From assembly GCF_900258435.1 (NCBI RefSeq), contig NZ_LT992558.1:1191246-1255245 (forward strand): DNA of 64,000 nt, read 5' to 3'. Below are positions 6,550 to 8,515 of the stretch, in pieces; positions within the stretch are counted from its first letter, which is position 1; each line of letters begins with the position of its first letter. Under the pieces are notes generated by a model, which was not told the origin of the DNA, did no database searches, and worked only from the letters and a program-made list of their open reading frames with translations. The DNA comes from Carnobacterium divergens (lineage in GTDB: Bacteria > Bacillota > Bacilli > Lactobacillales > Carnobacteriaceae). The position numbers were made by a program, and so were the translations under genes.

Positions 6550-6608
6550 GGATAGTGACATTCAGTTGGCTAAACCTTCAATTAAACTATTTTATTAATT
6601 ATTGGAGG
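6550..6608 (+). promoter_or_regulatory. Second RAT site, before bglP, able to pair over the ribosome site
   Basis: From 6550 the bases GGATAGTGACATTCAGTTGG then CTAAACCTTCA form a second LicT-type target. Unlike the first, no T-run follows. Instead the 3' end of the RAT (CCTTC at 6575-6579 plus AATTAA at 6580-6585) can pair with TTAATT (6595-6600) and GGAGG (6604-6608), the ribosome site of bglP. This suggests translational rather than transcriptional switching. Structure is drawn by eye. Confidence 0.7.
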
Positions 6609-6616
6609 AAACAAAA

Positions 6617-8515
6617 ATGGGAAAATATCATGAATTAGCAGAAAAAATTGTAGCAAATGTAGGCGGAAAAGAAAACATTAATAGCTTAACACATTGTATT
6701 ACGAGATTGCGTTTTAAGTTGAAGGATGAGAGGAATGCAAATGATGACATTCTAAAAAATATGGATGGCGTTGTAACCGTTATGAAGAGTGGTGGACAAT
6801 ACCAAGTAGTCATTGGCAATCACGTTCCTGCTGTCTATGAAGAGGTTGTGAGTATTGCAGGTTTGTCTGGTGATACTGAAGAAGAATCATCTGGCGGAAG
6901 TATTTTTAATCGTTTAATCGATATTTTAAGTGGCTGTTTTCAACCTTTTTTAGGCGCTTTAGCAGCAGCTGGGATGGTAAAAGGATTTAATGCTTTATTG
7001 GTTTTCTTAAAGCTATATTCAAACACATCCGGAACCTATACGATGTTAAATGGTATTGGAGATGCGATCTTTTATTTTATGCCTGTTATTTTAGGTTACA
7101 CTTCAGCTAAGAAATTTAAACTACATCCAATGGTGGGAATTGTGATTGGAGCAGCATTGTGTTATCCAGCCGTGCAAGGAAGTGCATTACAAGCAGTTTT
7201 TGAAAGTACTGCTGGCGCTGGTGCTGCAGCTCCTTATAGCTTATTAGGATTACCCGCTTATGATACATTTTTAGGGATTCCTTGGGTAGGCGGTAGCTAT
7301 ACAAGTAGCGTCGTGCCAGTAATCTTTATTATTGCATTTGCTGCTCAAATTCAAAAGTTGTTTAAAAAAATTATTCCTGAAGTAGTTCAAACATTTTTAG
7401 TGCCATTTTTTGTCTTATTAATTGCTTTACCAATTGGATTTTTAGTAATTGGTCCAATTATCAGTATCTTAACTGATTTACTAAGTAGCGGATTCCAAGG
7501 ATTAATGTCTTTTTCACCTGCATTATATGGTCTTATTCTTGGATTTTTCTGGCAAGTCTTGGTTATCTTTGGTTTACACTGGAGCGTTGTGCCTTTGGCT
7601 ATTATGCAAATTACGCAAGAAGGGTTTAGTCAAGTGTTAACAGCTTCATTTGCAGCAAGCTTTGCTCAAACAGCAGTTGTCGCAGCGATGTTCTTTAAAT
7701 TAAAAGATAAAAAAATAAAAGCCCTATGTCCACCAGCAATTATTTCAGGCATCTTTGGTGTAACGGAACCGGCGATTTATGGCATCACGTTACCAAAGAA
7801 AAAACCATTTATTTTCTCAATGGTAGGAGCTGCAGCAGGTGGTTTGTATTTAATGTTAAATCAAGTTACTTCCTATACAATGGGTGGTTTGGGAATTTTT
7901 GGTATTTTAAACTTTATCAACGGGGAAGACGCTAGTGGTGTTGTAAATGGGGCAATTGGTGTTGTTATTGCCGTTGCAGTGGCCTTCACATTAACGTTCT
8001 TCTTTTGGAAAGATGATGTGGTAGAAGAAGAAGTAGAAATTGACATTCCAAAAGCAATGAATAAAGACATTATCACATCTCCTGTGAAAGGAACGGTTGC
8101 GTCACTAAGTACCTCAAAAGATGATGCTTTTTCATCAGGTGCATTAGGTAAAGGAGTAGTGATTTCACCTGAAAATGGAAAAGTAGTAGCCCCATTTGAT
8201 GGGACTGTCATGACGGTTTTTCCAACAAAGCATGCCATTGGTCTAATTTCCGATAATGGAATGGAGTTATTGATTCATATCGGACTTGATACGGTTCAAT
8301 TAGAAGGAAAGTATTTTGAAGCATTTGTAAAACAAGGAGACAAAGTGGCACGTGGTCAAACATTGGTGACCTTTGATAAAGAAGCAATTGAAGCAGCTGG
8401 ATTCAGTACAGAAATTCCAGTTATTATTACGAATAGTGACGATTATTTGGATATTTTAGAACCACAGCAAAAAGAAATTAATTTAAATGATGATTTGATT
8501 ACCGCGTTAATTTAA
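6617..8515 (+). CDS. bglP: Beta-glucoside PTS transporter EIIBCA
   Basis: 632 aa. It imports and phosphorylates aryl-beta-glucosides or cellobiose-type sugars. Domain order: EIIB (about 1-90, active Cys27 in [10 protein letters not shown]), EIIC with about ten membrane helices (about 105-460), and EIIA (about 490-630, active His in [11 protein letters not shown]). The ATG at 6617 lies 8 bases after GGAGG; a TTG at 6602 overlaps that ribosome site and is rejected. It lies between licT and the phospho-beta-glucosidase gene. In this family EIIB also phosphorylates and silences LicT when no sugar is present. Confidence 0.95.

Follow-up and report, generated by a model that had tools for sequence, protein, structure and literature searches.

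By comparison of sequences, the RNA between licT and bglP of Carnobacterium divergens is very probably (about 85%) a translation switch controlled by LicT, and the same LicT would act by antitermination at a first RAT upstream. The analysis covers a window of 64,000 nucleotides, whose numbering is used throughout, and the corresponding loci of relatives. The anatomies of both sites can be read from the sequences, as can the mutual exclusion of the second RAT (RAT2) and a helix over the bglP SD through a common CC, the conservation of this arrangement and its covariation.

Two RATs in the licT operon

The operon runs in the order RAT1 with its terminator, licT, RAT2, bglP, a GH1 6-phospho-beta-glucosidase gene and a terminator-like site. 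Its features are:

5509..5537, + strand: RAT1 of the licT leader, 29 nt, antitermination mode (direct reading)
5533..5601, + strand: intrinsic terminator of the licT leader, overlapping RAT1, T-run at 5595-5601 (supported by the fold)
5626..6468, + strand: licT, BglG-family antiterminator (NCBIfam LicT equivalog, matches to PDB LicT chains)
6550..6576, + strand: RAT2, 27-nt LicT-type hairpin with a 2-bp upper stem and a 6-nt loop, GGATAGTGACATTCAGTTGGCTAAACC
6575..6582, + strand: 5' arm of the anti-SD helix, CCUUCAAU, its first two bases common with RAT2
6601..6608, + strand: 3' arm of the anti-SD helix, AUUGGAGG, which includes the bglP SD
6617..8515, + strand: bglP, beta-glucoside PTS IIABC, the proposed translational target (TIGR01995)
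8611..10077, + strand: GH1 6-phospho-beta-glucosidase gene, 3' of bglP (6-phospho-beta-glucosidase models)
10112-10152: terminator-like site after the GH1 gene

The licT product, translated from its second codon, scores 364.8 bits against the NCBIfam LicT equivalog model (cut-off 300) and matches, in both its N-terminal and its later parts, the PDB LicT chains 1tlv, 1h99 and 1l1c, the last of which is the complex with a RAT. It is a full member of the family, and this BglG-family protein with RNA-binding and PRD regions is encoded beside its RNA target. BglP reaches 706.1 bits against TIGR01995 (cut-off 614.7), and the GH1 gene matches 6-phospho-beta-glucosidase models with up to 610.4 bits, every one of them below its own curated cut-off.

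The licT leader turned out as the initial annotation had described it, with a RAT overlapping a normal terminator. RAT1 overlaps a strong intrinsic terminator that ends in a T-run, and the fold of this leader clearly beats shuffled sequences (z -4.78). Rfam RF03530 bglG-cis-reg matches the leader weakly at 5502-5619 (18.1 bits, below the gathering threshold of 80), whereas RAT2 is unmatched up to E 10. Both RATs are hairpins of the expected form, about 27-31 nt long and ending in AAACC; RAT2 is the shorter one (27 versus 29 nt), with one pair less in its upper stem.

The initial annotation had also placed before bglP a RAT-like hairpin overlapping a left arm that pairs with GGAGG, and RAT2 is this hairpin. 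Its terminal CC opens a contiguous 8-bp helix, CCUUCAAU/AUUGGAGG, over the bglP SD (CCTTC at 6575-6579, GGAGG at 6604-6608, ATG at 6617-6619). The CCTTC/GGAGG part of the pairing that had been proposed is retained in it, and the version extended by AATTAA and TTAATT is the poorer helix: with its 3-nt bulge it is predicted at -3.5 kcal/mol versus -6.1 kcal/mol for the contiguous 8 bp. Nor is the AATTAA/TTAATT part conserved in aligned relatives, in which the linker between the helix arms is highly variable in both length and sequence. By the same nearest-neighbour energies, RAT2 alone comes to +2.7 kcal/mol (RAT1 alone to +2.6). The anti-SD helix thus both pairs the SD and excludes the fold of the RAT2 binding site. 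The eight bases past the SD (AAACAAAA) contain no T, in line with the missing T-run that had been pointed out, and RAT2 does not overlap an intrinsic terminator with a U-run. Taken alone, the window is unconvincing, since neither fold there beats shuffles (z +0.54 for 6469-6640, z -0.52 for 6545-6625); it is conservation in relatives that argues against chance.

Several other elements lie in or around the operon. Upstream of the licT leader, TTGACA followed by the palindrome TAAGCGCTTA is found at 5447-5464; the palindrome resembles the consensus of CcpA cre sites. The gap between bglP and the glucosidase gene holds a 19-bp hairpin without a T-run (8526-8568, -24.4 kcal/mol, z -4.78), possibly an mRNA-stabilising or processing site; in several relatives inspected, the hairpins 3' of bglP are long but unrelated. 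A promoter-like TTGACA-17-GATAGT at 6528-6556 was discarded, being lost in a 98% relative, which has TTGAAA. A 73-nt direct repeat, 95% identical, occurs at 1386-1458, as the 3' part of a tRNA gene (1355-1438), and 3.9 kb downstream at 5273-5345. A phage-type integrase gene lies between the copies (2841-3962; Pfam Phage_integrase, 78.7 bits), and the repeats look like the att sites of a small integrated element whose end lies immediately upstream of the licT operon. Ordinary Rfam matches above gathering are a T-box leader (46861-47083, - strand) and a 23S-methyl RNA motif (33900-34014, + strand).

The anti-SD helix in relatives

A search of the order yielded 56 bglP places, with 55 of 395 genomes matching at a cut-off of E 1e-200. 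The 27-nt RAT (up to two mismatches) precedes bglP in 44 of these places and is missing in 12. In all 44 the 3' CC of the RAT begins a helix of 4-9 bp into the SD, and in 42 all five SD bases are paired. The exceptions, L089 and L090, pair two SD bases, and the helix of L090 is only 4 bp long; in the set of 51 leaders described below, L126 likewise pairs two. The initial annotation had made its proposal depend on pairing to GGAGG being kept in relatives, and kept it is, in 44/56 places.

The exact 27-nt pattern was found in 49/395 genomes of the order and in 7/398 genomes of the class, two of which are also in the order set and five of which belong to one family of large genomes; a reversed control pattern is absent from the matches listed. 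A Paenibacillus record (L145) has the same leader form as that family, with the helix beginning one base later. Named carriers of masking RATs are E. faecalis IDRL-9065 (NZ_CP143580.1, listed as a plasmid), the Ligilactobacillus salivarius plasmid pLS2102-15_1 and the Paenibacillus sp. 37 plasmid pART37. The BglP of the window is 98% identical to that of a sister genome and 80-83% identical to those of a single genus in another family (17 places), a pattern that points to horizontal transfer. In genus g22 a covariance model detects the element in 22/22 genomes examined, although the model includes members of this genus and is thus not independent of them. Seven of the second loci in this genus were inspected (L182-L188): in each, a bglP-like gene is preceded by a variant RAT and its SD helix, and a RAT of the licT-leader type with a T-run lies about 1 kb upstream. 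The variant, GGATCGTGACATT(A/G)AGTTGGCGAGACC, has C-G at pair 5-22; the upstream RATs have A-U there, or G-U in L187. A search of 388 class genomes for RATs of other forms with CCTYC and GGAGG downstream recovered nothing beyond the window and one genome found before; by its design the Paenibacillus-like form escapes it, as the helix there starts one base later.

For statistics we used sets of 51 and 61 leaders, defined by the 27-nt RAT pattern, GGAGG or GGAAGG and an ATG within 62 nt, with pairing not required. Across the 51 distinct leaders, the helix that starts at the RAT end averages 7.24 bp (4-11), versus 3.50 bp (sd 0.19, maximum 4.20, 2000 rounds) when the linker is shuffled and the CC and the SD are kept. 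In a MAFFT alignment of the 61 leaders 89.3% of the anti-SD cells are paired, compared to 84.0% after shuffling and 37.9-67.5% after sliding. Covariation is 0.206 versus 0.147 for shuffles, none of which (0/500) is as high, these shuffles ignoring relatedness. GGAGG is fixed by its role for the ribosome and CCUUC is its complement, so the covariation rests mostly on the inner pairs. Two measures out of five, the number of pairs changed on both sides (3) and that of further pair types (9), are no higher than in shuffles, and for both the true register is exceeded when the helix is slid by -2 or -3 columns.

The most frequent arm pairs are CCUUCAAA/UUUGGAGG (16), CCUUCA/UGGAGG (10) and CCUUCAAU/AUUGGAGG (8), followed by CCUUCAU/AUGGAGG and CCUCUGAAU/AUUUGGAGG (5 each) and by CCUUCCA/UGGAGGG and CCUCUAAAU/AUUUGGAGG (3 each). 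CCUAAUA/UAUUAGG, CCGCU/AGCGG, CCUCUAAU/AUUGGAGG and CCUUC/GAAGG are single cases. The helix survives changes in its arms, as seen in the first two of these and in CCUCU/GGAGG.

The same 27-mer occurs with two kinds of output. Among 76 distinct fetched contexts, a count that skipped contexts ending at a locus edge, 69 precede an SD and an ATG and 7, all outside the 51 and 61 leader sets, a T-run terminator; the module thus also serves ordinary antitermination. Three of the terminator contexts are licT leaders (L082, L085 and L086) from loci in which the bglP leader has the masking form. In L137-L139 the 27-mer and a terminator are found in the leaders of genes whose products, by reading, start like the glucosidase of the window. 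In L151 the order is RAT1 with a T-rich terminator-like stretch, licT, a masking RAT, a carboxylesterase-family gene (Pfam COesterase, 236.9 bits), a second masking RAT and bglP. Two SD-masking RATs in one operon suggest that bglP is probably not the sole target.

The licT leaders of the 56 places were also surveyed. A RAT (up to two mismatches) was detected in 20 of the 55 places with licT, one of which (L079) is false and represents its own RAT2. Re-examination of 18 of the other 35 places gave 13 exact RATs, a partial one in L060 and two recognised by eye (L065 and L067); among these 18, none was found in L080 and L095. Many licT leaders have a RAT with a terminator, and bglP leaders have a RAT with an anti-SD helix, mostly without a T-rich tail, which agrees with the two LicT modes in one operon that had been suggested from the window.

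Some matches were rejected. In the genome of the window itself, a second match to the leader DNA (L002) is AT-rich and lacks a RAT. The covariance model gives 12 further matches there (E 0.0056-0.95), and the best and only one inspected (L156, E 0.0056) is unrelated AT-rich sequence. One distant locus from a scan of the genome contigs with LicT was set aside.

How RAT2 would act on bglP

By default, the terminal CC of RAT2 and the next six bases would pair with the bglP SD together with the stretch just 5' of it, leaving ribosomes unable to start. With beta-glucoside present and LicT active, LicT would bind and stabilise the otherwise unstable RAT2 hairpin, whose stem would reclaim both C's; the two strongest anti-SD pairs would be lost and the SD freed. 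Upstream, at RAT1, the same LicT would act by ordinary antitermination. We infer the binding of LicT to RAT2, the release of translation and its dependence on LicT phosphorylation by BglP. Elsewhere it is established that LicT, after dephosphorylation of PRD1 by BglP and phosphorylation of PRD2 by HPr, binds an antiterminator that would be unstable on its own and stabilises it (available text of PMC7430163); LicT would do the same at RAT2.

Folding predictions fit this switch. In the window, the probability that the SD is unpaired rises from 0.00 in the free RNA to 0.75 with RAT2 forced, and the mean over the 51 leaders from 0.05 to 0.55. Access increases in 51/51 leaders, partly by construction, and the opening is partial at the mean of 0.55. 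Comparison values are 0.62 for RAT-less bglP orthologues (mean, n=12) and 0.38 for 18 other window genes with GGAGG (mean; three at 0.08 or below).

LicT at RAT2 could instead govern mRNA stability or processing, with the SD pairing being secondary, which we regard as quite improbable. There are reports of RATs that lack a terminator, along with proposals of other roles (discussion of PMC12502629, as available), and NagY acts together with RNase III in E. faecalis. However, in 51/51 leaders the sequence that pairs with the RAT 3' end takes in two to five bases of the SD, for which stability has no need.

That RAT2 serves ordinary antitermination, the hairpin before bglP being an intrinsic terminator that happens to miss its U-run, is less probable still. 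It has precedents: in operons of the window's own family (BglP 48-51% identical) nine loci (L034-L042) have, between licT/bglG and the transporter gene, a second RAT of 29 nt that comes with a T-run terminator, and the second RAT of C. acetobutylicum, according to the text at hand, overlaps a terminator as well (PMC12628678). Moreover, the 8 nt past the SD contain 3-5 T in 7 of the 51 leaders. In contrast, the count is zero in 25 leaders and one or two in 19, the SD itself forms the 3' arm and sits 7-10 nt before the ATG, and helices of 4-11 bp closing long A/T-rich loops make poor terminators.

The anti-SD helix might also be a constant brake on bglP translation, with RAT2 no longer read by LicT; we find this barely plausible. 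The shorter upper stem of RAT2 would fit it, and LicT binding to RAT2 is putative. The pattern that selected the leaders fixed most RAT positions, so that RAT conservation within the set is partly due to selection; it allowed mismatches at pair 5-22, and at this pair A-U (39), G-C (12), C-G (8) and G-U (2) replace each other, with no unpaired case in 61 leaders. This compensatory change, unenforced by the pattern, argues against an unread RAT, as does the presence of the same 27-mer at terminators, including those of licT leaders. Finally, repression of bglP by LicT, the bound RAT blocking the 30S subunit, would fit the position of RAT2 shortly 5' of the start codon and has a next to negligible chance, given that the RAT ends 23-48 nt before the ATG (at least 23 nt in 51/51 leaders), beyond the usual 30S footprint, that RAT formation raises predicted SD access (partly by construction) and that the SD is already hidden in the default fold.

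A probable second mode for the BglG family

Protein-dependent transcription antitermination has its textbook example in the BglG/SacY/LicT proteins. In translational riboswitches and in control of the TRAP/CsrA type, binding of a ligand or protein swaps an SD-masking helix for an open one; at RAT2, unlike there, the effector would be a PTS-phosphorylated BglG-family antiterminator.

E. coli bgl (PMC1489936) and C. acetobutylicum bglGTH (PMC12628678), as described in the available text, each have two RATs, each with an intrinsic terminator. They resemble the window in protein family and sugar class, and in the placing of the RATs, the first upstream of the regulator gene and the other separating it from the PTS transporter genes. 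There, however, the second RAT competes with a U-tailed terminator, whereas RAT2 competes with the bglP SD helix. The S. mutans locus has the same order of licT, RAT and bglP, but its RAT, 4 bases past the transcription start (the ATG being 162 bp past it), overlaps a terminator, and a short transcript was mapped (PMC1489936, same extent). RATs that do not overlap terminators were described by Gordon et al. 2015, as summarised in the discussion of PMC12502629; they likewise may do something besides antitermination, but SD masking is not mentioned in the available part of that summary. A review table lists the Bgl/Sac family under 'stabilizing antiterminator' (PMC4347634, portion at hand).

A BglG-family RAT masking an SD did not turn up in full-text searches, which covered mostly literature outside subscription journals, and is absent from the available text of PMC12502629, PMC9981650, PMC1489936, PMC4347634, PMC12628678, PMC7430163 and PMC11477304; an earlier proposal in Gordon et al. 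2015 is possible.

We consider it likely that a BglG-family protein serves as translational activator as well as antiterminator, through one RAT module with either a terminator or an SD mask as output, sometimes several per operon, found with bglP across several Lactobacillales families, including Enterococcus faecalis, and in Paenibacillus-like genomes, and forming a homeostat with BglP. In B. subtilis BglP is an inhibitor of LicT (PMC7430163, available text), so LicT-dependent translation of bglP would make such a homeostat: the regulator would permit the protein that both inhibits it and serves as its sensor to be made. Since E. faecalis carries the element, these predictions are testable in a tractable species. 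If true, the conserved second mode would widen the role of the family, the ribosome site being opened by the same RNA module; it would offer one explanation for RATs without terminators and a natural two-output RNA part.
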